Assembly: GCA_000333855.2 (NCBI GenBank)
Contig: CM007347.1
Location: 492,367-556,366, forward strand
Direction: 5' to 3'
Source: Endotrypanum monterogeii
Taxonomy: Eukaryota; Euglenozoa; Kinetoplastea; Trypanosomatida; Trypanosomatidae
Length of the DNA stretch: 64,000 nucleotides
Part shown: one piece after another, positions 11,388-56,958 of the stretch
Layout of the letters: each line of letters starts with the position of its first letter
Numbering within the stretch: the stretch's first letter is position 1
Made by a program: the position numbers and the translations under genes
Notes under the pieces: generated by a model
Databases searched by the model: none
Seen by the model: only the letters and a program-made list of their open reading frames with translations
Told to the model about the DNA's origin: nothing

Positions 11388-13046
11388 TTCCTTTCTTCTG
11401 CACAAACGACTAGCTGAGTAACCCTATTCCCCTGCGGTGAACATGTATCTGTGTGTGTGTGTGTGTGTGTGTGTGCCCGTCTGTGTACTTGCACGGCTTA
11501 CTGCTGTCGAGACCGCAGTCGTACAAGTGCGAATGCTACGCAGAGTGGCTGATGTCCCCCCCTTTAACACCCCTTTTTTTCTCCTCCGCAGAGTGTGAAG
11601 GCGTTACCTTCTCAAAGTTAGCGTTTTGATGAGCGATAAGGTCGTGTACGGTGTGAACAGATGAGACTAGCAGTCGCTCGAGGAGGGAGGGGGGGATTCA
11701 GAGAGTCTTGGGCCCACGACCGCAGCAATGCTGACTAGGACGGTATCGAACAGGCGAGGAAGCGAAACGCCACCTCTTGGCGTTGATAAGAAATCAAAGA
11801 AAAAAAACGCTAACACACAACCCACACGGTGAAGGAAGGAAGGAGAATGAGATGCAATAGGTCTATTGAAGATTATGATACGATTTGATTTACATAAAAT
11901 CGGTTGAAGGGAAAATGAAATATCGCTATACAGCGACGTGTATCTTCACCACCATTTTTTTGTCGCACTCGTTCTGCAAACGGCACAAACATCCCTTTTC
12001 CCTCACTGCTCCCTCGAGTCGTTCGTCGCTTCTCCCCGCCCCATTCTCCTCTCTACCTTTGCCTCGTATCCCTCATTGAAACATTGTAAATACATCTACC
12101 TCTCAGACCTGTCCTTGTTTGTCGAACAAACCGAGGGTGCAATGGGCACATCTCACAGCGCAGTGTCCAGTCACCTCCCCCCGTAAAAAACGTACAAACA
12201 TGTGATCAGCGCTCGCGGACCGGTGACGGTAATGAACACAAAAATGTGCACTTTATACCGTGCACTCCAACTCACTCACACACCTCCTGCTCTTTTGTAC
12301 ATCCCCACGAATAGAAAATAAAATAAAGGGATCAGAGCACCGCAGAAACGACTACAAAACAGGCACCCAGTGTAGCGCTTCGAAAGGGGGGACGCGTATC
12401 AGCAGAGGGACAGAAAGGGCCAAGCCGCGAGCACCGCGGCTCCAGATAGGGAGTGTATCCGCCAGACGAAGGAAGTGGAAGCGACCAAAAAAAGGGGGGA
12501 AAAGGGCTATGAATATATATATATTCCCCTGCCCCGCATTCACAGTAACTGCCAATACTAGGTGGCCTTTTTCTTTCTAATCAAGTGAGCACCGAAGAGC
12601 ACACTTCACAGGGGGAGCTGCGGGACCACTTCCCGTGAGAGAGAGCGCCATCCCTTTTCATGACATGTTTGGGTTTTTTTTGGGGGGGGGACTTTGATGT
12701 CCACGTGTGCGAGCTTTTTTTTTTTTACTTGACTGTTTCCTTCCATCCTTCCCTCATCACTCGATCATCGACTGAAATTCCTTCTTCGACAAGAAAAATC
12801 GGTACATTTTGGAAAGAGAAATAGAGGCTCGGAAGCAACGAATAAAGAGCGACCGCGGCACCACACTGCTACGGAGAGGTCCCTCTCCCCTCCAAAACAC
12901 AGAGGACAGTCAACAAAAGAGAAGTGGTAAACAAAAAAGGTACAGAAACAATAAAAAACAAAAAAAAAGGATCTATGATGTCTCCGGGCACGTGTGCCAC
13001 GGGAGAGCGTACAGTCAGTGACGCACCAAAGTAAAGGCGCGCTTCC
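11388..13046. other. Intergenic region between the 507-residue protein gene and the H1 array
   Basis: No convincing gene. Contains a GT run (about 11451-11475), C-rich and G-rich homopolymers (11549-11556, 12682-12690), and a T run (12715-12726). It would include the 3' UTR of the histone H1 gene at its right end and the 5' UTR of the 9864-11387 gene at its left end. Confidence 0.5.
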
Positions 13047-13390
13047 TTACTTCTTGCCAGCCTTCTTCGCAGCCTTCTTCGCGGGCTTCTTCGCCGGCTT
13101 CTTCGCAGCCTTCTTCGCAGCCTTCTTCGGTGCAGCCTTCTTCGCAGCCTTCTTCGGTGCAGCCTTCTTCGCGGCCTTCTTCGCCGGCTTCTTCGCAGCC
13201 TTCTTGCCAGCCTTCTTCGCAGCGGCCTTCTTCGGTGCAGCCTTCTTCGCAGCCTTCTTGCCAGCCTTCTTCGCAGCGGCCTTCTTCAGCGCAGCGGGCC
13301 TCTTCGCGCCAGCCTTCTTGGGCAAGCGCGAGGAGACCTCTGCGGCGACACCGTGTTGGCGGCGACGGCGACGGCGGAATCAGTGGACAT
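13047..13390 (-). CDS. Histone H1-like protein, copy 1, frameshifted in this sequence
   Basis: The product would be a short linker-histone-like protein made almost wholly of K, A and P (repeats of A-A-K-K and A-P-K-K), the form of kinetoplastid histone H1, which lacks the winged-helix globular domain and corresponds only to the C-terminal tail of animal H1. It compacts nuclear chromatin. The ATG at 13390 opens M-S-T-D-S-A-V-A-V, but the frame breaks near 13322: copy 2 reads TTGGGCGAAGCGC on the plus strand where this copy reads TTGGGCAAGCGC, one G fewer. Downstream of the break the K/A/P frame runs cleanly to the TAA at 13047-13049. Restored length would be about 114 residues. Since this lies in a misassembled tandem array, a sequencing or consensus error is at least as likely as a true pseudogene. 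Confidence 0.85.
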
Positions 13391-13873
13391 CGTTGAAAGG
13401 GCGGTTTGAGAGAATGGAGGGTGTGAGCACGGCGAGCAAGGTGTGAGTGGCGAGAGGACTGAGGAGAGCTGACGAAGCGAGGCGTGTTGGCGGTTGACGG
13501 GGAGGTAAGTGCAGGGAGGAGTGCATGGGGACGGCGTGCGCGTCGACGTGGAAGCGTGAAAGGGGGGGAGAAAGGAGAGCGGGGATCGAAGAGATGTGCA
13601 GCATGAGCACCCATGAGCAGTGTCAGTGATTTGAACGCTGTAACAGAAACGAAAAAAAAAACAGTCAAGAGCGAGCCACGCACCTGGCGGGTACACTACA
13701 GCGCAACACGCGCCATGCCCGCCCTGCGGCACAGCAGCCACGCGCGCCGTCCTGCAGGTGCAGGGCAGCCGCGATGGGAGAGCATTCAAGTGGGGATGCG
13801 TCACCACCTGTGTGGGTGGCGCATTGCGGGCCCGGCAGTCAGTCGGGACCAAGCGCAGCACGCATGGCGGGGG
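13187..13873. repeat. Histone H1 tandem unit, copy 1
   Basis: This segment matches 14016-14701 closely over its full length: the 5' part of the H1 coding sequence plus about 480 bp of upstream flank, ending at GCATGGCGGG. The flank includes a GC-rich block (about 13675-13873) that resembles the GC-rich degenerate retroposon remnants (SIDER) scattered in Leishmania untranslated regions. That identity is only a guess. Differences from the other copy are mostly one-base indels in homopolymers. Confidence 0.85.
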
Positions 13874-14005
13874 AAGGGGGGGGGAGAAAGAGAGCGGGGA
13901 TCAAGAGATGTGCAGCATGAGCACCCATGAGCAGTGTCAGTGATTTGAACGCTGTAACAGAAACGAAAAAAAAAACAGTCAAGAGCGAGCGACGGACCGG
14001 GCGGG
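13874..14005. repeat. Partial extra copy of the H1 upstream flank
   Basis: After the end of copy 1, the sequence jumps back to a point equivalent to about 14388 in copy 2 (G-run followed by AGAAAGAGAGCGGGGATC) and repeats about 120 bp of H1 upstream flank before reaching the N gap. The junction lies in a G-homopolymer shared by both sites. This looks like a chimeric join or collapse within a longer tandem array rather than a biological unit. Confidence 0.7.
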
Positions 14006-14015
14006 NNNNNNNNNN
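14006..14015. other. Assembly gap of 10 N
   Basis: Ten undetermined bases interrupt the histone H1 array, truncating the second H1 copy. The true gap length is unknown and may contain further H1 genes. Confidence 0.99.
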
Positions 14016-14221
14016 GCCTTCTTCGCAGCCTTCTTGCCAGCCTTCTTCGCAGCGGCCTTCTTCGGTGCAGCCTTCTTCGCAGCCTTCTTGCCAGCCTTCT
14101 TCGCAGCGGCCTTCTTCAGCGCAGCGGGCCTCTTCGCGCCAGCCTTCTTGGGCGAAGCGCGAGGAGACCTCTGCGGCGACACCGTGTTGGCGGCGACGGC
14201 GACGGCGGAATCAGTGGACAT
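14016..14221 (-). CDS. Histone H1-like protein, copy 2, 3' end lost in gap
   Basis: An intact reading frame from the ATG at 14221 encodes M-S-T-D-S-A-V-A-V-A-A-N-T-V-S-P-Q-R, then S-P-K-K-A-G-A-K-R-P and K/A-rich repeats. It runs off into the N gap, so about 68 codons are visible. Two S-P motifs near the N-terminus (in S-P-Q-R-S-P-R and S-P-K-K) are typical phosphorylation sites of H1 tails. This copy keeps the G missing from copy 1 and shows the normal frame. Kinetoplastid H1 genes are usually tandem multi-copy, which fits. Confidence 0.85.
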
Positions 14222-14701
14222 CGTTGAAAGGGCGGTTTGAGAGAATGGAGGGGTGTGAGCACGGCGAGCAAGGTGTGAGTGGCGAGAGGACTGAGGAGAG
14301 CTGACGAAGCGAGGCGTGTTGGCGGTTGACGGGGAGGTAAGTGCAGGGAGGAGTGCATGGGGACGGCGTGCGCGTCGACGTGGAAGCGTGAAAGGGGGGG
14401 GAGAAAGAGAGCGGGGATCAAGAGATGTGCAGCATGAGCACCCATGAGCAGTGTCAGTGATTTGAACGCTGTAACAGAAACGAAAAAAAAAACAGTCAAG
14501 AGCGAGCCACGCACCTGGCGGGTACACTACAGCGCAACACGCGCCATGCCCGCCCTGCGGCACAGCAGCCACGCGCGCCGTCCTGCAGGTGCAGGGCAGC
14601 CGCGATGGGAGAGCATTCAAGTGGGGATGCGTCACCACCTGTGTGGGTGGCGCATTGCGGGCCCGGCAGTCAGTCGGGACCAAGCGCAGCACGCATGGCG
14701 G
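14016..14701. repeat. Histone H1 tandem unit, copy 2
   Basis: Direct repeat of 13187-13873, containing the H1 5' coding part and the same 480-bp upstream flank. After GCATGGCGGG the two copies diverge, this one continuing into unique sequence. It defines the upstream boundary of the array. Confidence 0.85.
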
Positions 14702-16112
14702 GAGAAGTGGGTCTCACAGTAGGTCCTCGATGCACATCTTTTTCTTTCCTCCGCCTAGCGGATGCACAACAGCAAGGCGTGCACGCCCCGCGCCACACAC
14801 CGAGTGCTCCCTGCGCGGGTATCAGGTGACCAGCGCAGCAGGGGGAAAACAACACGTCAAGCAGTCAAACAAAAAAGACACAGCAACAAAGCAGGAAGGG
14901 GGACACGCAGCGGAGCCGCAAACAAACACCAAAAGGAAGGGAAGGAAAAATCCCCACCCACAGTCGACGCGCACACACGCACACACACACACACGCACCA
15001 TCACGACCAATGCAACGCCATGAACCACAAGCCTAGCCACACATGGCCTCGGAGGGACGAGACACCAGAGCACATGAAAGACACGAGAGGTGAGAGGGAT
15101 GCAGCGGGCACCCGCGCACCCACAACGCAGTGGAAAGAATGGGAATTCCACTTGGAGAGCGGCGCACACGCCCAGCAAGCCAGTAGGGCCACCAGCAGTG
15201 GGAGGCAGTGGAGCCCGTCGTGCAGGTAGCACATGGTCACCGAGGCGGACGACGGGTAAATCAAGAAAGAAAGCGGGCCGCACGCACGCAAGCACCCTCT
15301 TGCACCCTGCGCCCTGCATGGAAGCTGCGCACCTACACCCCTCAGCAAGCACAGGCCCGCGCATTCTAGACGACAGTCGAAGGTGCGCCACGGTGTGGGC
15401 TCAGAGGGCGCTCATCATGCAACAGGCGGCTGCCCCTCCGCACCCCACACACTCGCTTGGTAGAGATGACACATGCCTGTGCACACACGCAGATGTATAC
15501 GCCAGGATCCAGACTCAGTGGCATGCTCGTCTCGAGCCGCCCGCGCCGATCGCCATTGCTCTGCGGACCTCAAGGTGCTTTGCGGGCACGATATACACTA
15601 TGCCCGTCACAACCACGGCGACCGTGCCCTGACAATCCGAGGCCCCACAGGATCGTCTGGCTAGCCGCCAGGGAAGGGGGGCACAGGGTAGCCTACACAC
15701 CCTCGACAAAAGTGGGCCATGTCAAGCAGAAGGTGCCCCATGTGCACACGGCTGTCAGCATACACAGAAACTCTGTAGTTCCTGGTGAATAGCTCAGGAA
15801 ATGATAGCCGATCAAGGGAAAAAAAGAGGCACAGGTGATTGGGCCAGCAGGTAAAATGTAAGGGTCCAATACTTTTCCCTGTTGCTGGTATGAGAGCGGT
15901 CCTATTGTGATGCGTATAGTATAGTAGGGCAGAGGCGAGTTCAGGTCTGGATGCGGGGAGGTGTGGACAGAAAAAAAAAAAAAGAGGACGAGAACGAAAG
16001 GAGATGTGGAGACATGCATGCATGCAAGTGGGTGCGTCTAGGACGGAAGGCTAATACTTCCCTCTGCGGCGAAGCACGTCAACGATATACTTTACTTAAT
16101 AGGTCAGATATA

Positions 16113-16143
<31 letters not shown>

Positions 16144-16461
16144 ACCGAACGAATGCCTAGGAAAACATAGGCGTGTGAGGACGACTTGAGGCACAATAAC
16201 ATCTTAGGGGGACGTGTGTTGCACTGTCAGACATCTGGCAGACCAGCCGCATCATTCTCCGAGGCATGATCGAGTACATTTTTTTTTCCTTCTGGGGGGG
16301 GGGGGACTATTCTCGCCGTACTACAGACGTTAAGCTGCACCCGTCCACTCTGAGACCCATCACCTCAAACGGGAAGGAAAAGGGCGCGTACTCGAGGTAG
16401 GACGACGCCATCTCATGAGCACAGCATCCACTTCGAATTTTGCTCACCAGCTACATCGCAG
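14702..16461. other. GC-rich to mixed intergenic region upstream of H1
   Basis: No gene supported. The part at 14700-15700 is unusually GC-rich for intergenic DNA here, with many CAC/GCAC repeats (14970-14996), and has overlapping open frames on both strands without coding-like composition. It may include degenerate retroposon-type sequence. The part from 15780 on is A-rich, with an imperfect TA repeat at 16110-16144. Confidence 0.45.
16110..16144. repeat. TA microsatellite
   Basis: Imperfect TA dinucleotide repeat of about 35 bp. Confidence 0.9.
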
Positions 16462-16853
16462 GTCTCCCCTGAAAGCCACTCCCAATGCACCGACTGTCAC
16501 GCAGTGTATCCTTTCAGGGCAACTCCAGAGCCCTTTCCAAGCCTCCCCCCCCCTCCAAACACAAACATACACACTTCGATTGTCAGGCGACAAGGACTCA
16601 ACAAAATGTGCTCGACTCACATTGACACCTTGCAGGTCACATGAATGGTGCACATCTTCACGGCTGCGACTTGAATCCATCGCAACGACATCATCGACCC
16701 CACCATGAAATCGGTAACGACGCATCGCGTCGACATCGCGCTGAAGAAAGCTCTTGACCTTCTCTTCATGAGCAATGGTCTGACCCTCACGGGGGAGTGG
16801 ACTAGGGGACTGCCTTTGTTTCGCACATTGCGGGTCGAAAACCTCGATGCCTC
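16462..16853 (+). repeat. 392-bp inverted repeat, left arm
   Basis: This segment is the reverse complement of 25707-26098. Reading base by base, the arms appear identical except for a few positions in the first 25 bases (CCTGAAAGCCACTCCC here versus CCACAAAGCCACACCC there). Homology stops abruptly at both ends, GATGCCTC being the last shared bases on one side. One frame stays open through both arms (T-V-T-Q-C-I-L-S-G-Q-L-Q-S), but it has no recognisable domain and probably reflects only the shared sequence. The identity as a mobile or SIDER-type element is unproven. Confidence 0.92.
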
Positions 16854-17139
16854 ACGTTAGGAGGACGCCCCTCCTTACAAGGAACATAGTAGTAAAAGAA
16901 AAAAAAACATATTCACAGCGAGAAGGCGACGGCATGGTTTCCTTTCCCACCCACTCAGCACCTTCCCTCACCTCCCCCACTCATATACGCTGCTGTCTGT
17001 CGCGATGACGCTAAGCGCTTCTCATTGGCTGGGCTGATGTGTGTCATTGCTTCTTTCTCCTGAACCTCTTCCAAAGAGTGAAAAAAAAAAGGAGAGAGAA
17101 TGTACACCATCTTTATATATGTATATATATATATATATA

Positions 17140-17176
<37 letters not shown>

Positions 17177-18313
17177 CTATCACACAACCCCCTTCGCCTC
17201 ACCCGTGGGGGCGGCAAGGGGGGGGTCCGTAGCTGAGTGGGAGATGCGGTGAAACAGAGAGGCAGCGAATTGCAAGAGCATCAACTAAGAGAAAGAAGGC
17301 GACGTCACTACTCAAAAAGAGGCAACCAAAGGACCAGCGAAGACGAGAGGAAAACAAACGCACACACACACAGTACAAGCCAATCACAATATATGCGAGT
17401 GACGATGATGCAGCGATAAGATTGGCCAAGAGGACGGACAACGGAGAAAAAAAAAAGGAGGTGCCGACCATTTCCAGTGTAACAATGTCACCTCTTCTTT
17501 TTCGTCCAAAATCTAAGCTTAGCGGTAGTCGACCACATCATTTTTTTACCCGACGCTCTCGGAATTGTGAATACCGCTTCAAGGTCACCTGAGGGGACTT
17601 TTGTTTGTCCAGCCCCCCTCCCTACCCCACTTGGGCACAGGCCCATATGGGCAGCAGGGGGGAGGGGAATTCCACGGGCGCTACAGGGCATGCGCCACTT
17701 AGACTACCGGTCAAGACCCCAGATCATCCTCTCAAGTCACGTCCAGAATCGATGGAGAGGCGCGTCAGGAAAAAATCTCGGGAGAGGGAATATGATTGAG
17801 TTCAAGTGCTTGCTTTCTCCCGATGCGCCAGTGTCGCTGCCCTCACAAACGAGCTTGGTGATGAAAATGACGAAAAGAGCGCAAGCCATACAAGAAAAAA
17901 AAAAAAAGAAGAACAGGGTGGACTCGAGTGCGACCCTCGGCCGTCGCTCAAAACACGGGGAGCATATAGCTAGATGACGGAAACCAACAAAACGAATACA
18001 CACCCATACACATACGCGCGTGTAGGACAATAAACGTCATGGATCAACTGAACCAACCATAAGAGACGCCCACACGTTTTGGAGGGGGGAAAATGAGTGT
18101 TTTCTTTCTTCCCTAGCGATGAAGGTCAATGAACGCCGGGATTTTTTTTTTGTGGCCCGTAGTCTACAGACTACGTGAATACGTCGAGTCCCACAGGGCG
18201 TGTCCTCACCCTCCCCCCCCCCCTCCCAACCCGTCTCGGACCCATCGCTTTTCTTATGCTGCCTTGACCGTCTCTTTCACGTAGAGGACCATCAGCACAC
18301 GACTGCATTCCCT
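16854..18313. other. Intergenic region downstream of the STRAP gene
   Basis: No gene supported. It contains a compound TA/GT microsatellite (17113-17174), a short perfect palindrome GCCCATATGGGC (about 17641-17652) flanked by C-rich and G-rich tracts that could form a hairpin, and A-runs. It would include the 3' UTR of the STRAP-like gene. Confidence 0.5.
17113..17174. repeat. Compound TA/GT microsatellite
   Basis: A TA-rich run of about 28 bp followed directly by GT repeats of about 32 bp. Confidence 0.9.
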
Positions 18314-19279
18314 CTACGCCTCTGTGTCGTACTTCTCGATGATCTCATGCGAAGGCCACACACGCACCATGCCGTCTTCTGCTCCGGAAGCATAAGAGTT
18401 TCCATCTGGGGCCCAACGGATGTGAAACACGGGGCCGTGGTGACCGCGGTTAGACTCCACCTCCGCGCCGTCCAGCGTGAACTCTTTTGCCTTCAGCTTT
18501 GATCCGGCCGCAACGCGCTGCCCATCCGGAGAAAGAGATGCACACTCGACATCTTCAGCGGTGGTAAAACTGTTCTTCACCTCCAGGGATGTGGTGTCTA
18601 TAAAGCTGATGCTCTTTTCATGAGCGACAACAATAGAGTGGCGGTGTGTATACTCCACAAAGTTCAGACCAGGAATCTCCCGGCGCAGGTAGGGTCCAGA
18701 GGTGTCCCTGAGGTCCCACTTCATGATCACGTTCTCGCACGCGGTCACCATGGTGTTTGTGTCCAAAAAATACGTTGACTTGACGTTAATGGCGTCAGGG
18801 CTACCGAAGGACAAGGGATCAGCGTCGTAACGAGTGGCATCATAGATGCGGATGTTACCATCAAAACAGCCTGTGGCGATCCGCTGATCCATCCAGTCGC
18901 AGGACTTAATGTACTTGGGGTGGCTCCACACATGAAGCTTCTTGCCGGTCAGGGAGTCCCAAACTATCGCAGAATAGTCGCCGCTACCAGTCACCAACCG
19001 CGTAGCGCCATTGTTGAAAGCTGAGCAGAACACAGCTCCCTTGTGCCCCTCAAACGTTCCCACCCAATCACCGGTCTGGCCATTGCGAAGCATTGGTTTT
19101 GCGTCGTGGCATGACGTCACAAACCAAAATGTGCCATCGATGATCTCACTGTAGTTAATGTGACATACCGGTCGAGTGTGCCCGGAGCAAATCTTCACCT
19201 TCGTGATATCTGCAACACCGTTGTCTGCAGCGGGGCCTGCTGGTGCTACTTTGCCTGTAGGGGCCACGTACTTGCTCAT
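18314..19279 (-). CDS. STRAP/unrip-like WD40-repeat protein
   Basis: A 321-residue WD-repeat beta-propeller. It matches the serine-threonine kinase receptor-associated protein (STRAP/unrip) family along its length: I-C-S-G-H-T-R-P-V-C-H near the start, then a K-P-M-L-R-N-G-Q-T-G-D-W segment, T-F-E-G-H-K-G-A-V-F, the IVWDSLTGKKL strand, and a C-terminal GPVFHIRWAPDGNSYASG followed by G-M-V-R-V-W. In other eukaryotes STRAP works in SMN-complex assembly of snRNPs, translation and signalling scaffolds; which applies here is unknown. The frame stays open far upstream, but the ATG at 19279 is chosen because a poly(T)-AG acceptor lies 23 nt upstream and because the upstream part is low-complexity. 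The 321-residue length fits the family (about 350 in animals). Confidence 0.93.
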   Translation of the reverse strand: MSKYVAPTGKVAPAGPAADNGVADITKVKICSGHTRPVCHINYSEIIDGTFWFVTSCHDAKPMLRNGQTGDWVGTFEGHKGAVFCSAFNNGATRLVTGSGDYSAIVWDSLTGKKLHVWSHPKYIKSCDWMDQRIATGCFDGNIRIYDATRYDADPLSFGSPDAINVKSTYFLDTNTMVTACENVIMKWDLRDTSGPYLRREIPGLNFVEYTHRHSIVVAHEKSISFIDTTSLEVKNSFTTAEDVECASLSPDGQRVAAGSKLKAKEFTLDGAEVESNRGHHGPVFHIRWAPDGNSYASGAEDGMVRVWPSHEIIEKYDTEA

Positions 19280-20611
19280 TGGAATCTGCCGTTGGAGAAG
19301 TGCTAAAAAAAAAAAATCGCAGAGATCGGCGCAGAAACAAAAATACCGCTGGATGAACAGTACTGGTTCAGTGGCTGCTTGCGAAGTCGGGAAATTGCAG
19401 TGGTGAACCTCCACAAGAGGAAAAATATATATATATGCTGACGCTAGTACGTCACTACCCGAGGGTTGCCTCAACGCGTCAGTCAGTACTAGGCTATTTG
19501 TGTGTGCGTATGTGTGTGTGTTTGGATCGACTCTTGGGAGGCGGGTATCGTCTTGCCTGTGGTGCTTAAATATGTGCGTCACGATTTGATGACAAGAGGT
19601 GAGAAATCTCTGAATGGTTCCGCTGACACAACTGCAATGCGACTGCGCAAGTAACGGGAGAGGTAAATTTGCTCTTGGAGGGTGTTTCTTGAGCGTTATT
19701 TGAAAGCAACGCAAACTCAAAACGAAGCACACACGCGCACACACACATGCACAAGGAACGCCACGCAAACCGCAGGAGTCAGCAACAAAGGAAGTTGAGG
19801 TAGGAAGCTTGTGCGGCATTATGCAAACACCAGCATAGTCATATGATCACGTGAACGACTTCTCACCCCGTCTGTGCTGTTAGCATCGGGCAATGATATG
19901 CGAATATTTTCCAACATCATTCCTGAGTGACGGATTCGAGCCGGGAAATGAGAAGTAGACGATGCCGGTGCTGCGGCGACACGGACGCGAGGCCGTCCGC
20001 AAGCAAGCGTGCATCTTGAGACAATGAGTACGTGTTCGGGACGGCGATGACCACGATATACGACTCAATTTGATTCTTGATTCCTTGGAGACAAAACATA
20101 CAAACATGAGTACGAGTTAGTACCACTTAGTTCCTAGCCAATACACCACACCGGCCTCCCGCTGATGATCACAGACCCTCCAAGAAAATATATAAAACAG
20201 AAAAAAAAATGGACGGTCAGGGAGGGGGCCCTCAACGCTCTCACATGGGCGACTTCTCCTGCAAACAATCACAGGAACGCGGATTCCCCCTCTATACGCA
20301 GATTTTACTCGCTCCTTCCCAGAGACCTGTCGCCTCCCCCTCTCTCTCCTCCCCCCCCCTGCCTCCAAAGGAAACAAGTCGGTCGTCTGTAAATACAAAA
20401 GGCGCAAGTGTCTTTAAAGGATTGCCCATATACGAGCCGGCTCTATATAGACGAAAACAAAGATGGCGATGTAACCTTCTTCTGTTGATATCCCTGAGCC
20501 GCGATATAAACGACACCAACTGTTAGCTAGCGCGATGAAAAATCTTCCAGACGACTCATATCCTTCTCGTAACACGTTTACACCGCTACGTTCGCATGAA
20601 GGGGCCATTCA
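19280..20611. other. Intergenic region between CCT2 and STRAP-like gene
   Basis: No gene supported. Apparent frames are short. Contains GT-rich (19498-19520) and CA-rich (19733-19748) stretches and a C-rich tract (about 20329-20362). It should include the 3' UTR of the CCT beta gene. Confidence 0.5.
19303..19316 (-). promoter_or_regulatory. Spliced-leader acceptor of the STRAP-like gene
   Basis: The minus strand reads twelve T (19305-19316) followed at once by AG (19303-19304), about 23 nt before the ATG at 19279. It is the clearest trans-splicing signal in the leftward cluster and decides the start codon of the STRAP-like gene. Confidence 0.7.
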
Positions 20612-22201
20612 TCACTGGGTGCGTTGACGCGGCACAGCGCGAAGTACATCGTCCACCCGCAAGATCATCTCAGCTGCTTCTGAGGCATACGCCACAACTG
20701 AGCTCTTCACCTTGTAGGATTCAGTGATACGAAGGACCTTCACGTCAGCAATATCACCACGGATGACATCGATACCATAAGCCTTGTTCCCGCGGTAGTG
20801 CTCCGCTTGAAGACGGGTAACAAGGTCGTTGCTATCGAGGCCCGCGTTATCTGCGATGATTGCAGGAAGTGTCCGAAGTGCAGCGGCAAACGCCATCATT
20901 GCAAGCTGTTTTTTCCCAGCAATCGACTTGGCTCTCTCCTCCACAGCGTTCGCCATAAGAAACTCCGAGCACCCGGCACCGAGCACTGTACGCGTCTCCT
21001 TCACAGTTTCCGAGATGACGCAGATCGCATCATGAATGGAGCGCTCCGCCTCATCAAGTATGTGGCGCGACGCGCCGCGCAGAACAATCGTGCACGCTTC
21101 GCCCTTGGGGAGTCCAGAGAACCGGATAACGGTGCCTTCACCGATCATGACCTCATCGATTTTCTCAGCGAAGCCATACTGCAGATTTGCAGTATCATCA
21201 AAAGTTGAAACGACGTCAGCCCCGAGGGCCTTCGCAAGGCGCTCGATTCCATCAAAATCTGCGTGCTCGATTGCCATGATACCGTGCTGAGCAAAGATCT
21301 CCTCGGGATAGTTGTAGATCAGTTGGCGGTTAATGAAGCAATTGATATTGTGGTTGATGATCTTCATGCACTTGGATTTCATTTTGGCCTTCTCGGATGC
21401 CTCCACCTCGGCCAGCTGAGAAATGCTATCCACGTTCACCTTTGCTCCAAAAATCTTAATTTTGTCAGTATCCATTGGGGTGTTCGCTACAAGAATCTTA
21501 GCGTTTTCCAAAGAGCGGGGCTGGCCGATGCCGATCTTCTTGTCCAGCAGGAAGCCAGGCTCGAGATAGCTGTCACGAAGAGTACCACCAAGCTTCTTCA
21601 TGATATTGATCATCTCGAGGTTGCCACTTCCCTTCAAACGGAGAACCGCATCAACACAAAGCCTTGCAAAATGATCTGACTCCACAGTAATAATTTTGGA
21701 GCTGAGGGTAGTTTTGGCGATAGCGATAAGATCCTCGTAAAAGAGCTTTTCATCGGACCCGTGATCCTCAGTAGAGTCCGCCAGCGCTTTCTGCGCGCAC
21801 TCGGCCGCCATGCGGTAACCCTCGATAATAGTTTGGGGATGGATAGACTGATCCAGAAGCTTCTCCGCATTTCGCAGAAGCTCTCCAGCAAACACGGTGA
21901 CGCTAGTGGTGCCATCGCCCACTTCATCGTCCTGCGTCTTGCTCATATCGATCAAAATCTTGGCAGCTGGGTTATCCATGAAGAGAGATTTAAGGATTGT
22001 TGCACCATCGTTGGTGACGCGCACTGACTGCATTCGATCCATTCCTTGAAGAATCTTATCCATTCCTTTTGGACCCAATGTCGTCTTCACAATATCAGCC
22101 ACTGAAACAGCACCCATGATGTTCATCAGACGTGCACGTTCGCCTTTCTCCTCAGAAGCGCCCTGGCGCAACACCTGAGAAGCCTGATTAGCGAAAAACA
22201 T
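20612..22201 (-). CDS. CCT2: T-complex protein 1 beta subunit (CCT2), group II chaperonin
   Basis: A 529-residue group II chaperonin subunit. The ATP-binding equatorial domain shows [12 protein letters not shown] near residue 40, [10 protein letters not shown] near 62 and the catalytic [12 protein letters not shown] near 90. The intermediate and apical domains carry [10 protein letters not shown], the beta-typical [16 protein letters not shown] strand and [15 protein letters not shown]. The C-terminal equatorial half has [30 protein letters not shown] and A-E-M-I-L-R-V-D. The [13 protein letters not shown] and [15 protein letters not shown] segments point to the beta subunit among the eight CCT paralogues. 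It folds actin, tubulin and WD-repeat proteins as part of the cytosolic TRiC/CCT double ring. Length is as expected and the frame is intact. Confidence 0.97.
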
Positions 22202-22885
22202 TTTCTTTGATGCCTTTTTTTAGTGCGACACTAGATAGAAAACAGTTGTCGTTTGGGGAAGGAAAGTTGAAAATCAAGTAATGTGGTGGAATTGTATAAA
22301 AGACTCAATCTACTTTCAGGTGAAATGAAAAAAAAACTGTTTTTCGAAATAAAATGCACCGTGTCAGATTCAAGAAAAATTGGAGGCAAGAGGGCGAAAT
22401 AGCTGGGGCTCTCGAGGGGAATTGAATGTATAATACGGATATGGCTCGCAGAGAGCAAGCACCTACTATCATCGATAGAGGAGTAATTTCAAGACGGTAA
22501 GAACACCGCTAGGGAAAAACAGAGTACCTCAATAAATAGGCGATTTTTGTAGCTATACCTCGCTCTTAATTTTCAAGTTGAAGAGAATTATCGACATAGA
22601 ATACTTGCTTTTTCTTCTCCGTATGTGTATCAAACGGAAACGCTGAAAGGTAGGAAATGTGGCAAAAACAGAGGTGGGAGAGTGACGCGGGAGCCTTCCA
22701 ATAGAGCACCTCTACTTTTTTTTCTCGATAACTTTCAGTGTCAAAACAAGACGTATGGTACGAACTCACACACATAAACAAATTTATATAAAAAACGTTT
22801 CGCGGAGCACAATGATAGATTCAGGAAGGAAAAAAGTTCATCAACTCACACTCGAAGATCAGTGGAAAAACAGAAAAAAATTCAA
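22202..22885. other. AT-rich intergenic region
   Basis: No gene seen. It is distinctly more AT-rich than the intergenic regions to the left and contains the 5' UTR of CCT2 and the 3' UTR of the zinc transporter. A sense poly(T) run upstream of CCT2 (22328-22336) may belong to its trans-splicing signal. Confidence 0.5.
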
Positions 22886-24766
22886 CTAATCGAGATGAAG
22901 CACAAAACTTATATTATGAAGATCAAGATGTGTCATCATATGTGCTGTTACTGTTTCCATGATACCTTTCCTTGCCGCTGTGTATTCAACATTACTGCGC
23001 AGTTTCCCTGCCACAGTGCAAATTACGAGCTCGCGTGGAGCAGTAGAGTGCACCCACACCTTTGGGATTTCAACATTCTCCAAAAAAGCTGTTTCTAGAA
23101 GTGCCTCACGCAATTTATTAGGATAGCCACCTTCATCATTTGGTGCAGATAGCAGAAGAATTTTTCCCGTTTCTTCAAGGAGAGGAAAAGCGGAGAGTAG
23201 AATCAAGACGGCACTCATGGCACTACAAATCGGATCTGAAATCCAGATACCGAAAAGATAAATCAAAATACTGGAAATAATTACGCTAACACTGCCCAGC
23301 AAATCCGCCAGAATATGCAGATAGACTCCACGCATGTTGTGATCTACATGACCACCACAACCACCTTCACCATGCGAATGTGAATGACTATGGCCATGTG
23401 CATCGTGAAAAAATAAAATGCCTACCACATTTACCGCTAACCCAATCAGAGAAACAAGAAGTAAAAATGGTCCTTCGATTTCAGGAGGATCCAAAATCCG
23501 CTGTACCGATTCAACTATCACATACAGCGCAATAAAAATAAGAAGGATACCATTTACAAACCCTCCCAAAACCTCGTAGCGTGCGTAGCCAAAAGGATGT
23601 GTTTTTTCGTCTGGTTTCCACGAGGCAGCGTGTGCTGCGTATAGCCCAATTACAATAGACAATCCATCAAGCATCATGTGGAACGAATCCGAAATCAAAC
23701 CCAAAGAATTAACCGCCAAACCGTAGATAAACTCTAACAGCATTATGCCCACAGTTAAAAGAAGGAAAAGAAAAAGCTTGCGCTCCCTTGAATTTGAAAG
23801 TAAGGTGGCAAGAAGACCGTCATCCTCAGAGTGCTGTTTGGCTTTCCTAAACATCTGTGCTGGATTGAAGGGTACGCCGCTTTGTGTACCTGAAGAAGTG
23901 TCTCCAAAAGTGAGACCTTTGTGTGCAGCCAATAAAAGACAGCAGCTCCCTAGCAAGGCAAGGCTTTCCCAGTCGTACAACTTTGGAAACACTTTCCCTT
24001 TACAGAACAGTGATGCAACTGACATACCAACGACTGCGCCTACGAGCTTTGTAATGCTCACCTGCAGCGACAGGCCTGCATGGAAGCAGCCAATCAAAAC
24101 AACAGATGATACACTGAAGATGAGTAGTAGCAACATTCCATTCTCAGCTGCAGATTTATGATGAACAAGAGTGGTAATAAAACCTACAAGACCTAAACCA
24201 CAGGATGCTAGAAGATACGCTGCGTGATGCGCCTTTTTCATGGATTCTTTTGTGGATATATAAACAGCACCACTGGTGCAAGCAACTCCCAAGAGATCGG
24301 AAAGCTTAGATGTCTGCGATGGCAGAGCTGGGTTCGACGTGAAAACCACCAGAGCACAGCTAAAAGCCGTACACGCTAACCTTACGAATCGTGAAGTTCT
24401 TCGAACCCGAGCAATATGAGCTACAGCAGCAGTGCAAGCACACATACACGCAAAGCGCACAGCTCCAAGAGTAGTGAGGCCGTATGCAGCACTCACGAAA
24501 AAAAGAGCACATGCTCCAACGGAAAGCAAACGACATTGGTCAAGAAAAATGTCCCGTTTTATGACTTTGGAGAAAAGTATCTGTGTAAGACGCACCAAAA
24601 ACGTCAGGATTGCCGCAAAGGAGCTAAGCCACATTACGCTTGTACCCGAGAGAGTGGCACAGTGGTGAAGAAAAACAAGACATACTGACGCGGTTAGTGC
24701 CGCAACTGCCTCGAAAAGCTGCATTTTGCCCGTTGATGGGTATATGTATCTGTACGAAGAAAACAT
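22886..24766 (-). CDS. Zinc transporter of the CDF/ZnT family (ZnT5/Msc2-like layout)
   Basis: A 626-residue polytopic membrane protein. The C-terminal half is a cation diffusion facilitator: SLGLISDSFHMMLDG carries the first HxxxD zinc site (H363, D367), HILADLLGS the second (H484, D488). Between them lies a histidine-rich cytosolic loop (H-G-H-S-H-S-H-S-H, around 455-470), and a hydrophilic C-terminal domain (about 535-626) follows. The N-terminal 300 residues add about eight more hydrophobic segments, a layout known from ZnT5 and yeast Msc2, which load zinc into the early secretory pathway. Zinc/proton exchange is the expected activity and secretory-pathway location the inference. An alternative start is the ATG at 24724. 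Codons here end in A/T more often than in CCT2 or eIF2B. It is the first gene leftward from the strand-switch region. Confidence 0.93.
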   Translation of the reverse strand: MFSSYRYIYPSTGKMQLFEAVAALTASVCLVFLHHCATLSGTSVMWLSSFAAILTFLVRLTQILFSKVIKRDIFLDQCRLLSVGACALFFVSAAYGLTTLGAVRFACMCACTAAVAHIARVRRTSRFVRLACTAFSCALVVFTSNPALPSQTSKLSDLLGVACTSGAVYISTKESMKKAHHAAYLLASCGLGLVGFITTLVHHKSAAENGMLLLLIFSVSSVVLIGCFHAGLSLQVSITKLVGAVVGMSVASLFCKGKVFPKLYDWESLALLGSCCLLLAAHKGLTFGDTSSGTQSGVPFNPAQMFRKAKQHSEDDGLLATLLSNSRERKLFLFLLLTVGIMLLEFIYGLAVNSLGLISDSFHMMLDGLSIVIGLYAAHAASWKPDEKTHPFGYARYEVLGGFVNGILLIFIALYVIVESVQRILDPPEIEGPFLLLVSLIGLAVNVVGILFFHDAHGHSHSHSHGEGGCGGHVDHNMRGVYLHILADLLGSVSVIISSILIYLFGIWISDPICSAMSAVLILLSAFPLLEETGKILLLSAPNDEGGYPNKLREALLETAFLENVEIPKVWVHSTAPRELVICTVAGKLRSNVEYTAARKGIMETVTAHMMTHLDLHNISFVLHLD

Positions 24767-26518
24767 AGCGAGTTGAAAAAGGAGTAATCAGAAAAAGATT
24801 GAGATTTACCTTCTAGAGCCATAGAGTTGATTTTCCAATCCGAACATTAGATGAGCAGCACTTCTGTGGCAAGAAAAGTCACATTGAGGTTATTCGTTCA
24901 CATACGGCTGCAGGAATGCCACCAACTCAAGGTAGATACTTCATAGATTTTCAAAGTATAGACGAAGCACTCGCAGCTGACGCATTGTGCCAAGTGCATT
25001 AGGGAGCTTGACAACGCCAGTGTGCCCCAGAGACTGAAACGTACTCGTCAGAAATCTAGAGAGGCAAGAGCACGCAAAAAATATTTCAACCGTTACCTTG
25101 AATCATCACCACAAGGATACCGCAGCATTTTTAAAAAGGTCAAAACAGTTTTTCCTCGTAAGTAACTCGATGCTTTCGCACGGTGAAAATTGTCTTCAAA
25201 TCCAATGAGTTCTACTCAGCCTACGGCATGCCAAAAGTCCCGAAGCGCAGAAGAGGAGAGGTTATGCAACTGCCAAGCATTTACAGCATCATGCACTGTC
25301 CATCGCCCCTCTCCATTGTGACTCAAAAATCTTTTCTCATTGGAATGCAACTCATTCTACAGGATAAAAAAAGAAAAAAAAGGCTTCTATCTCCTTTAAG
25401 CGAAATTGGTATCCCTCAACATATTTCGAAAGAATACAGTCAAGGGTTCTATTGATCGCTTTTCTATGATGCAACGCCCGGTATTTCTTTGCGCAACACA
25501 TAGGCAACCCTGTGGATTGACACCTTTCTTGACCACAGCACTCCTGTAATTTGAACAAGTTCTGAAGCACTACGAAGCTTCTTTGCCAAGGCGAAAAAAT
25601 GATTTGCCCGTTTACACAATCAAAGTACGCGCAAATAATTATATGCGATTTTGCTGAAGGCCGATTGAAGAGTTACGTTACAGTTCCCCCCCCCACCCAC
25701 TGGCACGAGGCATCGAGGTTTTCGACCCGCAATGTGCGAAACAAAGGCAGTCCCCTAGTCCACTCCCCCGTGAGGGTCAGACCATTGCTCATGAAGAGAA
25801 GGTCAAGAGCTTTCTTCAGCGCGATGTCGACGCGATGCGTCGTTACCGATTTCATGGTGGGGTCGATGATGTCGTTGCGATGGATTCAAGTCGCAGCCGT
25901 GAAGATGTGCACCATTCATGTGACCTGCAAGGTGTCAATGTGAGTCGAGCACATTTTGTTGAGTCCTTGTCGCCTGACAATCGAAGTGTGTATGTTTGTG
26001 TTTGGAGGGGGGGGGAGGCTTGGAAAGGGCTCTGGAGTTGCCCTGAAAGGATACACTGCGTGACAGTCGGTGCATTGGGTGTGGCTTTGTGGGGAGACAC
26101 AACTTTAGAGGAGAGGCACTGTTGCTTCAGTTTGTCGCGTGGTCGTGCAGACAACCAACTGCTTTGACCATGTCGGTGAAAGAATCTGCATATATTTGTA
26201 TTCAAGCTAAACCACGAAAAAAAAAATCTTTCATGAGGGGAAAAAACGGTTCTATGGATGGCCAGGAAAAACTGTTTTTAGCTCCTTTGAAACTCATCGG
26301 AATAATCGGAGGGGCCGAGGCCAATAATCGAAAGCATTTAATTCATCTGAAGTCAGTAAGCTGCGCTATCTTTTTTCCCAACTCCTTGTCCGGGAATAAT
26401 GAATTGTTTAAGGTGCTGATCTTTTCTAACAATTCGAAAACCTTGTCCACGTTTGCCTTCCCCTACCTGGTTGCTTTGGAGAATGATAAAGCAAGTCATT
26501 TCCTGTCTAAAGGCGAAG
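24767..26518. promoter_or_regulatory. Divergent strand-switch region, probable Pol II initiation zone
   Basis: All genes to the left are on the minus strand and all genes to the right on the plus strand, so the coding direction diverges here. In Leishmania and Trypanosoma such divergent regions are the sites where RNA polymerase II starts bidirectional polycistronic transcription, without TATA-type promoters and with modified histones. No core promoter motif was identified. The region is AT-rich, holds only short open frames, and includes the right arm of the 392-bp inverted repeat (25707-26098). No tRNA-like sequence was found in it. Confidence 0.75.
25707..26098 (-). repeat. 392-bp inverted repeat, right arm
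   Basis: Reverse complement of 16462-16853, appearing identical over most of its length and equal in length (392 bp). It sits inside the divergent strand-switch region, immediately followed on the left by a C-rich run (25685-25698) and on the right by unique sequence leading to the deubiquitinase gene. The 8.85 kb between the arms carries the STRAP-like, CCT2 and zinc transporter genes. Confidence 0.92.
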
Positions 26519-28246
26519 ATGTTCGAACTCAACAAGAAGATCCCTTTCGAGGAGTTCCGCAAAACCATATATCACCATGCGCGGACATATGAAATTCCAC
26601 GTACAGATCCTTACGAACAGTGTAAGATTGTAAAGGCGCTTATCATGAAGGCCCGTGAAGAAGAAGTGAACCGATGCTACTCTAAGGCCTTCTATTACGC
26701 CAACAAGTGCCTTCTTTTTTTTGACAGAGATGAGAATTCTCGCGAGTTTGTGAAGAAGAATCCATCCATAAGGCAGATATGTGTAGAAGCACTCGATCTC
26801 GTGGCTAGGTTGGAGGAGAAGGGGCTTCACATAGAGTACAATGCTATGATGAAAGAAATCGATCGCAGGGAACCTGAACGACGTCGCATTGTTGCCCGGC
26901 AACTGGAGCCAGATTGTGAAGATAATGGCGGTAGTAGCAACACCTCATCTGCTGTGGACATGCATTTGATGAAACAACGGCAGTTGCTTTCCTCAGAGAG
27001 CATTAATCTGGACGAGTTATTGCAGCAACTGCACCAGACATCAATTCCTGATAAGCAGGGACACACTTCCCTAAGTATTCCCGGCGGTCCACTTACCCCC
27101 CAGCAAATTCACACCACCAATTATACACCTCAAGTATCTCCACCGTTAACGCTTCCTGAACCTTCAGGGAACAACAACTATTCTATTTCAACACCAGGTG
27201 GTGCCTACGCCAACTGTGTTTTGAATTCGCCAGATGCATCTTTCACTGTACCACGGCGGGGATTAGTAAATTTGGGAAACACATGCTACTTGAACAGTGT
27301 GCTGCAGGTTCTTTACTCGACACCATTAGGCCGGTACTTTCTCACAGACGATTACGTCTCTCGTCTGATCACAAAAAAAGGAAAATTGACTCGCCTAATC
27401 AATTCTTTTAGCTTCGTTATCCGAGAGCTTAACCGTACGGATTGCGATTTTTCAGTGAGCGTGTCGCCATTCAAGTCTGCACTTGGAGACTATTACGAAG
27501 GATTAAAGAACTCGAAGCAGCAGGACGCCAACGAGTTTCTTAGAGTTCTCTTGGACGGATTACATGGAGCATTAAATATGAATGATGGTAAGAAAACTAT
27601 CTTTCCTGAGATTGACAACTCTCAAGGCACCGATGATGAGCTAGCCCACAACTACTGGACTCAGTACTATCAGAAAAATTCTTCTGTTGTCGTGGACCAC
27701 TGTGCGTTCCAAGAACGAAGCTCACTTCTTTGTCCATCCTGTGGTCACCAGTCACGTTCTTTCAACATTTGTCTGAGCATTGAAATTCCCATACCGTCGA
27801 CATCGTCGAAAATTTCACTTGATGATTGCTTTTCGGCGTATTGTAGGGAGGAAATTCTCGATAACAACTCCATGTACATGTGCCCGCATTGTCACCGGAA
27901 AGTGAATGCCCGCAAGCAAATGTTGTTTTATTCAGTACCATCTGTGCTGTTCATAACGTTGAAGCGGTTCCGGTCTTATGGTAATTTTACCAGCGCCTCA
28001 AAGGTGAACTCGAGCGTTTTTTTCAGTAAAACGTTAAGCATCGCTCCTTATATGTGCTCCAGTTTCTCGAAAACCACATATCATTTAGTGGGGATAATCA
28101 ATCATCAGGGTAACATGCATGGTGGTCACTACACAGCAGACGCCCTTGGTTCTGATGGGGTGTGGTGTAACTTCAGCGATGAGCGGGTAACCAAAGCCGA
28201 TATGGCGGATAATAAACAGGCCTACATACTCTGCTACGTCCGTTGA
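26519..28246 (+). CDS. Ubiquitin carboxyl-terminal hydrolase, USP8-like
   Basis: A 575-residue cysteine protease of the USP/UCH family (C19) from the ATG at 26519; the frame stays open further upstream but encodes no domain. Residues about 8-110 resemble the helical USP8 dimerisation/MIT-like domain (P-F-E-E-F-R-K-T-I-Y and a Y-S-K-A-F-Y-Y-A-N-K helix). A Ser/Thr/Pro-rich linker follows (about 115-240). The catalytic domain begins at GLVNLGNTCYLNSVLQ with nucleophile C256, has Q-Q-D-A-N-E-F, two zinc-ribbon CxxC pairs (L-C-P-S-C-G-H and M-C-P-H-C-H), the general base in N-M-H-G-G-H-Y-T (H537) and a D-containing W-C-N-F-S-D-E-R-V box near 554. The active-site set looks complete. It would cleave ubiquitin from substrates, and a USP8-type endosomal role is inferred from the N-terminal domain only. 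First plus-strand gene after the strand switch; codon use is more AT-rich than most of the window. Confidence 0.93.
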   Translation: MFELNKKIPFEEFRKTIYHHARTYEIPRTDPYEQCKIVKALIMKAREEEVNRCYSKAFYYANKCLLFFDRDENSREFVKKNPSIRQICVEALDLVARLEEKGLHIEYNAMMKEIDRREPERRRIVARQLEPDCEDNGGSSNTSSAVDMHLMKQRQLLSSESINLDELLQQLHQTSIPDKQGHTSLSIPGGPLTPQQIHTTNYTPQVSPPLTLPEPSGNNNYSISTPGGAYANCVLNSPDASFTVPRRGLVNLGNTCYLNSVLQVLYSTPLGRYFLTDDYVSRLITKKGKLTRLINSFSFVIRELNRTDCDFSVSVSPFKSALGDYYEGLKNSKQQDANEFLRVLLDGLHGALNMNDGKKTIFPEIDNSQGTDDELAHNYWTQYYQKNSSVVVDHCAFQERSSLLCPSCGHQSRSFNICLSIEIPIPSTSSKISLDDCFSAYCREEILDNNSMYMCPHCHRKVNARKQMLFYSVPSVLFITLKRFRSYGNFTSASKVNSSVFFSKTLSIAPYMCSSFSKTTYHLVGIINHQGNMHGGHYTADALGSDGVWCNFSDERVTKADMADNKQAYILCYVR

Positions 28247-55948: not shown

Positions 55949-55979
<31 letters not shown>

Positions 55980-56437
55980 GCGGTTGGTGCTCATCTTTGT
56001 ATATGTCTTGATACCGATGAGCATAGTGCGACCATAAGAAAAAAAAAGAAAGTCAAATAGTCTCAAGCTCCACAGTTGGTATATATCGACGAGCCGAGGT
56101 TTTTGTTTGAAAGGCATTTCATTACTTCGCAGCTCGACTTATAGTGAGAGAGAAAAAAAAGATTTTTGCTGTGGCACAGCGCACGCGCGCTAAGGCAGGT
56201 ATATGCGAGGCGTCTGGTCTTCTTCCAATGCGCGCATTTCATTGTTTATATCTTGACCGAATGAAAACACTTATTTGCCTACGCTCTCGGCGTCATGTGA
56301 ATGCATGCTTCTCGAACAGTTTACCTCCCCAGTGTCTGGTGGAGGGAGATGTTTTCTTCACCGACATCAACATCCACGCCTCCCCCGGTCTCTTTCTTTT
56401 TCTTCCTCACTTTTGTCTCCCCCTGTCTCCTGGTTTG
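55943..56437. repeat. Direct repeat, copy 1 (left of N gap)
   Basis: About 495 bp that reappears at 56458-56958 with no visible difference except the length of the internal TG run: 14 TG units (55952-55979) here against 18 there. It ends exactly at the N gap. Most likely two overlapping contig ends that were not merged. Confidence 0.9.
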
Positions 56438-56457
56438 NNNNNNNNNNNNNNNNNNNN
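56438..56457. other. Assembly gap of 20 N
   Basis: Twenty undetermined bases lying exactly between two copies of the same 0.5-kb sequence. This points to a false gap or a tandem duplication that the assembler could not resolve. Confidence 0.99.
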
Positions 56458-56461
56458 CTCT

Positions 56462-56501
<40 letters not shown>

Positions 56502-56958
56502 CGGTTGGTGCTCATCTTTGTATATGTCTTGATACCGATGAGCATAGTGCGACCATAAGAAAAAAAAAGAAAGTCAAATAGTCTCAAGCTCCACAGTTGG
56601 TATATATCGACGAGCCGAGGTTTTTGTTTGAAAGGCATTTCATTACTTCGCAGCTCGACTTATAGTGAGAGAGAAAAAAAAGATTTTTGCTGTGGCACAG
56701 CGCACGCGCGCTAAGGCAGGTATATGCGAGGCGTCTGGTCTTCTTCCAATGCGCGCATTTCATTGTTTATATCTTGACCGAATGAAAACACTTATTTGCC
56801 TACGCTCTCGGCGTCATGTGAATGCATGCTTCTCGAACAGTTTACCTCCCCAGTGTCTGGTGGAGGGAGATGTTTTCTTCACCGACATCAACATCCACGC
56901 CTCCCCCGGTCTCTTTCTTTTTCTTCCTCACTTTTGTCTCCCCCTGTCTCCTGGTTTG
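56458..56958. repeat. Direct repeat, copy 2 (right of N gap)
   Basis: Second copy of 55943-56437, offset by 521 bp after the TG run, continuing into unique sequence (CTGATGTTTCAG) at its right end. Confidence 0.9.

Follow-up and report, generated by a model that had tools for sequence, protein, structure and literature searches.

What kind of element is a pair of nearly identical sequences that lie in opposite orientation on one chromosome of Endotrypanum monterogeii, with one copy inside a strand-switch region, and what would recombination between them do to the genes that they bracket? The pair is located in a window of 64 kb (the whole stretch of DNA analysed; bases 492,367-556,366 of contig CM007347.1 in assembly GCA_000333855.2). 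Positions are those of the window unless preceded by C27, which denotes the contig (978,369 bp, in a genome of 30.7 Mb and 44 contigs) and presumably corresponds to chromosome 27. The two arms very probably make up a repeat family of the kind described in Leishmania as repeat alignment groups (RAGs): low in copy number, specific to one chromosome and intergenic, here with two inverted and apparently non-coding copies. This assignment follows from the sequence, copy number and location of the arms, together with the presence of comparable families on the same contig.

The inverted repeat and comparable families on the contig

The left arm (16462-16853, plus strand) is intergenic, downstream of a WD40 gene of the minus-strand unit, and the right arm (25707-26098, minus strand) lies within a divergent strand-switch region. 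Each arm measures 392 nt, and the two are 99% complementary across a spacer of 8,853 nt. An earlier description made from the letters alone (the sequence-only reading) had reported two equal arms at these coordinates, with sharp boundaries and identical but for a few bases at one end, and had proposed aligning them; all of this was borne out. The alignment was gap-free, with 99.2% identity and three mismatches at arm positions 9, 10 and 19 from the outer end. The outer 19 bp (16462-16480 on the plus strand in the left arm; partner 26080-26098) contained all the differences, and the other 373 bp were identical, giving a 95% upper bound of 0.8% for the divergence of the core. Homology ended abruptly on both sides, the best other match within 4 kb of flank per side having an E value of 0.72. 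The second arm was retrieved in the genome search with an E value of 1.5e-199, which excludes chance. No run of N was found at either arm, the gaps of the window being at 14006-14015 and 56438-56457.

The search of the arms against the whole genome, also proposed in the sequence-only reading, found no place other than these two, both on C27, with two DNA searches; genome-wide counts given here are lower bounds, and the search skips very common words. A 23-base core of the arm, allowing up to three mismatches, matched just the two arms genome-wide, and the backward control found no match.

The abundance of similar repeats was surveyed by self-comparison of C27:1-200000 (including 15,576 N) and of the window, with a minimum of 150 bp and 80% identity for a pair to be retained. 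This gave 15 pairs in the former and three in the latter. Nine of the 15 were set aside (four of a tandem array at C27:65659, one 181-bp tandem repeat, two at N gaps and two in long open reading frames, ORFs), and the remaining six formed four dispersed families of 207-484 bp, 96.3-99.6% identical and outside ORFs of at least 300 aa: family A (229 bp, 97.8%), family B (207 bp, 96.6%), family C (484 bp, 99.6%) and family D (about 410 bp, three copies, 96.3-98.1%, two of the three pairs inverted). Low-copy repeat families other than the arms were located at C27:72589-79433, C27:94308-99772 and C27:128129-140746, several of which share an identical core but differ at their edges. Two of the nine copies of families A-D overlapped minus-strand ORFs of 170 aa, in a region whose long ORFs are almost all encoded by the plus strand. 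Only families C and D were searched genome-wide, where two and three copies were found, respectively, all on C27.

With four comparable families in 200 kb of the same contig, the arm pair is ordinary in this genome. Nor is the location of a copy at a strand switch special, because one copy of family B (C27:72589-72794) falls after the last long minus-strand ORF (to C27:68111) and before the first long plus-strand ORF (from C27:75284), at another apparent strand switch as judged by ORFs of at least 300 aa. Families B, C and D showed weak cross-matches (E 0.04-0.11) and perhaps share a degenerate common ancestor. No convincing cross-match was found between the arms and families A-D; a weak match of family C overlapping the outer edge of the left arm (16323-16501, E 0.017) was not convincing. 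The arms and families together gave 109 matches to other places, nine of them in the surroundings of the families (4.7% of the sequence).

No gene or RNA family was supported in the arms, which are apparently non-coding. The sole frame open throughout the arm scored 0.001 bits per codon, compared with 0.091-0.393 for the 10 training genes. Of 20,000 shuffles, 3.1% also had a fully open frame, as had 3.7% of 270 intergenic windows; some of these windows overlap the arms. No protein relative of the arm was found at an E value of 10 or better among 30 candidates, no Pfam match at an E value of 1 and no Rfam match. Folding was unremarkable relative to shuffled sequences (z = -1.07 and -0.61), and a structured RNA was rejected for lack of both an Rfam family and a folding better than that of the shuffles. 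A plus-strand frame of 60 aa, which we take to be leucine-rich-repeat-like in appearance, was also rejected as coding, its translated matches being confined to the two arms. Besides the two arms, a 128-aa frame of the other arm strand matched a single further site, on C23 (E 7.4e-5, 28% identity, three stops); this last match was considered compositional, as a different frame is open throughout on C23 and the aligned one is not.

Ubeda et al. (2014; PMC4028189, here and below as far as its available part goes) screened Leishmania major for repeats in intergenic DNA, 0.2-2.5 kb long and sharing 85% identity or more. Their catalogue comprised 1,926 such repeats, sorted into 507 RAGs that were usually restricted to a single chromosome; 242 of these RAGs had just two members. 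The arms are similarly intergenic and apparently non-coding (the coding score alone being a weak argument), 392 bp long, 99% identical, confined to one chromosome with two copies, and arranged as an inverted pair within 1-100 kb. They look like a further example of these known, sparse, chromosome-specific repeats and not like a new kind of structure. One difference is their position: inverted repeats of L. major are in general nearer the telomeres, whereas the arms sit at 52-53% of the 978-kb contig. Several other points weigh against the assignment. The best frame of the arm (0.001) scored above the median of the intergenic windows (-0.095), yet below their 95th percentile (0.018; 270 windows, some overlapping the arms). 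The score discriminates weakly, since eight of the 17 ORFs outside the training set reached 0.025 or less and one antisense ORF reached 0.277, and a small gene in the arm is not strictly excluded. Moreover, the host is outside the three species in which RAGs were catalogued, so that the model is carried over from them. In that catalogue, more than 60% of RAGs were shared between L. major and L. infantum, and 10% and 16% with L. braziliensis. The arms extend the RAG-type repeat landscape beyond these three Leishmania species, although a single locus alone changes little.

Age and origin of the arms

The near-identity of the arms had been attributed in the sequence-only reading to recent duplication or gene conversion, and the distribution of the mismatches leans, not decisively, towards conversion of an older repeat. 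The clustering of the three mismatches at one edge had a probability of 1.7e-4 if they were counted as independent and of 0.005 if the adjacent pair was counted as one event. In family C, 464 bp were identical and both differences fell in the last 20; in the D1/D2 pair of family D, 357 bp were identical, and the differences were found close to one edge and, about 50 bp from the opposite edge, in a G run. In most of the five pairs compared, the differences were concentrated at the edges. When five pairs were pooled, the differences were nearer the ends than under a uniform distribution (12 events, P = 0.003, with edges trimmed to eight matched bases; 13 events, P = 0.001, with four bases; 18 events untrimmed, 0 of 100,000 simulations), in a small sample with a crude null and with two of the three family D pairs omitted as non-independent. 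Crowding of differences at the edges fits gene conversion because conversion tracts should seldom reach the edges of a repeat. The pattern suggests that the arm copies may be older than their identity implies, occasional ectopic gene conversion having homogenised the core and left the edges diverged, and gene conversion, as suggested by the edge decay, would be a simple and testable reason for the persistent near-identity of such repeats. Against gene conversion, family A showed no edge pattern (two of its four events were central), the pattern of family B was partial (one of seven events central), and errors near a junction could give a similar distribution.

These junction errors belong to a possible, if on balance doubtful, alternative in which the 392 bp were copied in a single recent inverted duplication, for example by template switching during repair. 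The 373 identical bp, with their low upper bound for divergence, and the sharp ends with flanks devoid of homology are as expected from such an event. The confinement of the mismatches to the outer 19 bp fits it less well, and youth alone does not predict the identical core and diverged edges that recur in families C and D and partly in B (not in A). Rather unlikely is a descent of the arms from a SIDER2-like retroposon that became truncated and degenerate, forming a local subfamily of two members. Like the arms, SIDER2 elements are short and intergenic, and form local subfamilies in both orientations: the available part of PMC2424063 describes subfamilies close together on one chromosome, in both orientations and mostly oriented with transcription, and that of PMC11520807 a 5-fold enrichment at divergent over convergent strand switches. 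With the right arm counted as part of the plus-strand unit, the two arms share one orientation with respect to transcription. In addition, the repeats behind the M210/M230 amplicons of L. major are related to SIDER2, 374 bp long and 98% identical (PMC2424063, same part). Unlike SIDER2, the arms occur in only two copies and have neither an A-rich end nor a target-site duplication, no 6-mer being common to the 30-bp flanks. Many true SIDERs lack such an end and duplication too: of the SIDER2 elements on chromosome 32 of L. infantum, only about 28% have A runs, and target-site duplications are not clear in that species (PMC2424063, likewise); they are reported for only 18.9% of aligned LmSIDER2. 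Further against such an origin, no convincing relative of the arms was found in 264 kb, the matches to the arms with 350 bp of flank being mostly microsatellite-like, and a dispersed family of many diverged copies was not found in a DNA search that could miss very diverged copies. Both this origin and a recent duplication are compatible with membership of the RAG kind.

It is highly improbable that the pair is an artefact of assembly. Identical or near-identical direct repeats do flank N gaps at 56438-56457 and C27:198470-199069, but no gap was found at either arm, the flanks of the arms are unrelated and the copies differ at three sites; moreover, the locus tags of the two genes flanking the right arm are consecutive in Porcisia hertigi and L. 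enriettii. No more credible is that the arm marks transcription start in a directional manner and was copied into the unit next to it. In favour of this, one arm lies in the divergent strand switch, on the outward strand both arms have a run of nine G preceded by a GT-rich stretch, and GT-rich promoters in Trypanosoma brucei are cited in the available part of PMC11708010. Runs of at least nine G or C are nevertheless common, with 18 in the window, and TG/CA microsatellites are frequent there.

Bracketed genes and consequences of recombination

Three minus-strand genes are bracketed by the arms, encoding a WD40-repeat protein of 501 aa (18314-19819; Pfam WD40 and beta-propeller matches), a TCP-1/cpn60 chaperonin subunit of 529 aa (20612-22201; PF00118, E 2.8e-154) and a cation-efflux, probably zinc, transporter of 626 aa (22886-24766; PF01545, E 7.4e-43). 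The sequence-only reading had named them STRAP, CCT2 and a zinc transporter; Pfam supports the three families and not the exact names STRAP and CCT2. On the plus strand, the first gene of the opposite unit encodes a ubiquitin carboxyl-terminal hydrolase (26483-28246; PF00443, E 5.3e-54), and the ORF map and Pfam matches delimit a divergent strand-switch region of 1.7 kb from ATG to ATG (24767-26482). The right arm belongs to this region, as had been proposed, because it lies between the ATG of the transporter (24766) and that of the hydrolase (26483).

The best match of the transporter was P. hertigi JKF63_03306 (78% identical), and the hydrolase was about equally close (65-68%) to P. hertigi JKF63_03307 and to several Leishmania proteins. 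As the locus tags of the two genes are consecutive in P. hertigi (JKF63_03306/03307) and L. enriettii (CUR178_03597/03598), the orientation of the bracketed block appears to be ancestral, judged at its right end only. A composite transposon with terminal inverted repeats was rejected on the same evidence, which indicates, indirectly and for the right end, that the block is not absent in relatives. No tRNA gene was found in the window, and no phage relatives were found.

In the models given in the available parts of PMC4028189 and PMC4256157, a break or a stalled fork leads inverted repeats to anneal, and the annealed repeats prime synthesis as far as the telomere. This supports the statement of the sequence-only reading that inverted repeats serve in Leishmania as recombination sites for linear amplicons. 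On chromosome 23, 40 of 48 predicted amplicons were detected by PCR, 15 of them at inverted repeats, and the rate of rearrangement was estimated at about 1e-6 to 1e-7 per cell (PMC4028189). In L. infantum, linear amplicons were RAD51-independent, only one of 10 MRE11-null clones had one, and the PTR1 linear amplicons used mostly inverted repeats 3-10 kb apart (PMC4256157, in the same part). The arms resemble the PTR1 repeats in spacing (8.85 kb) and the M210/M230 minichromosome repeats of L. major in size and identity. The difference is that amplicons were observed in both these systems, whereas that of the arm pair is only predicted and would be about two half-chromosomes long. Annealing of the arms would duplicate about half the chromosome in linear, inverted form, by an MRE11-dependent and RAD51-independent route if it proceeds as in L. 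infantum; the predicted products measure about 1,027 kb for the left side or 929 kb for the right side. From the geometry of the model, one half-chromosome would be present twice and the three bracketed genes once per molecule, in a central unduplicated loop.

Amplification of the zinc transporter and the chaperonin subunit, as suggested in the sequence-only reading, does not follow, because the published model duplicates the DNA from the repeats to the chromosome end, outside the arms, and would, by its geometry, leave the bracketed genes single. This corrects an easy misreading: in the model, inverted repeats amplify what lies outside them. A dedicated function of the pair for the three bracketed genes is not implied.

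Crossing-over between the arms would instead invert the 8.85-kb block and flip three whole genes to the other polycistronic unit, all still pointing away from the divergent boundary. With the left arm in the unit next to the divergent strand switch that contains the right arm, such an inversion would avoid head-on genes. That the pair acts as a switch by which genes change units in a reversible and tolerated manner, and that similar pairs explain the drift of strand switches, is nonetheless very unlikely. The orientation found here is that deduced from the P. hertigi and L. enriettii locus tags, and no fixed inversion was seen; an inverted form could be present as a minority. The available parts of PMC5031125 and PMC11807225 contain nothing on strand-switch inversions in Leishmania.

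Other repeats and gaps of the assembly

Besides the arms, an inverted repeat of 40 nt and 73% identity (I2) was also listed in the window. Two identical stretches of 486 bp surround the 20-N gap at 56438-56457 (55952-56958), and a similar arrangement was found at C27:197892-199647, where repeats of 578 bp and 99.8% identity surround a gap of 600 N. These gap-flanking repeats look like unmerged contig ends and not real repeats. Elsewhere in the window (13015-14711), a short Lys/Ala-rich ORF, presumably histone H1-like and without a Pfam match, lies in a direct repeat of about 830 bp that includes the 10-N gap at 14006-14015; this region is perhaps a collapsed tandem array. Finally, C27:143405-198471 contains repeats of 424-605 bp, 90-99.5% identical, within open frames of great length (up to 5,576 aa) and next to an N gap of 14.9 kb. 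They probably belong to a large gene for a repetitive protein, which is difficult to assemble.

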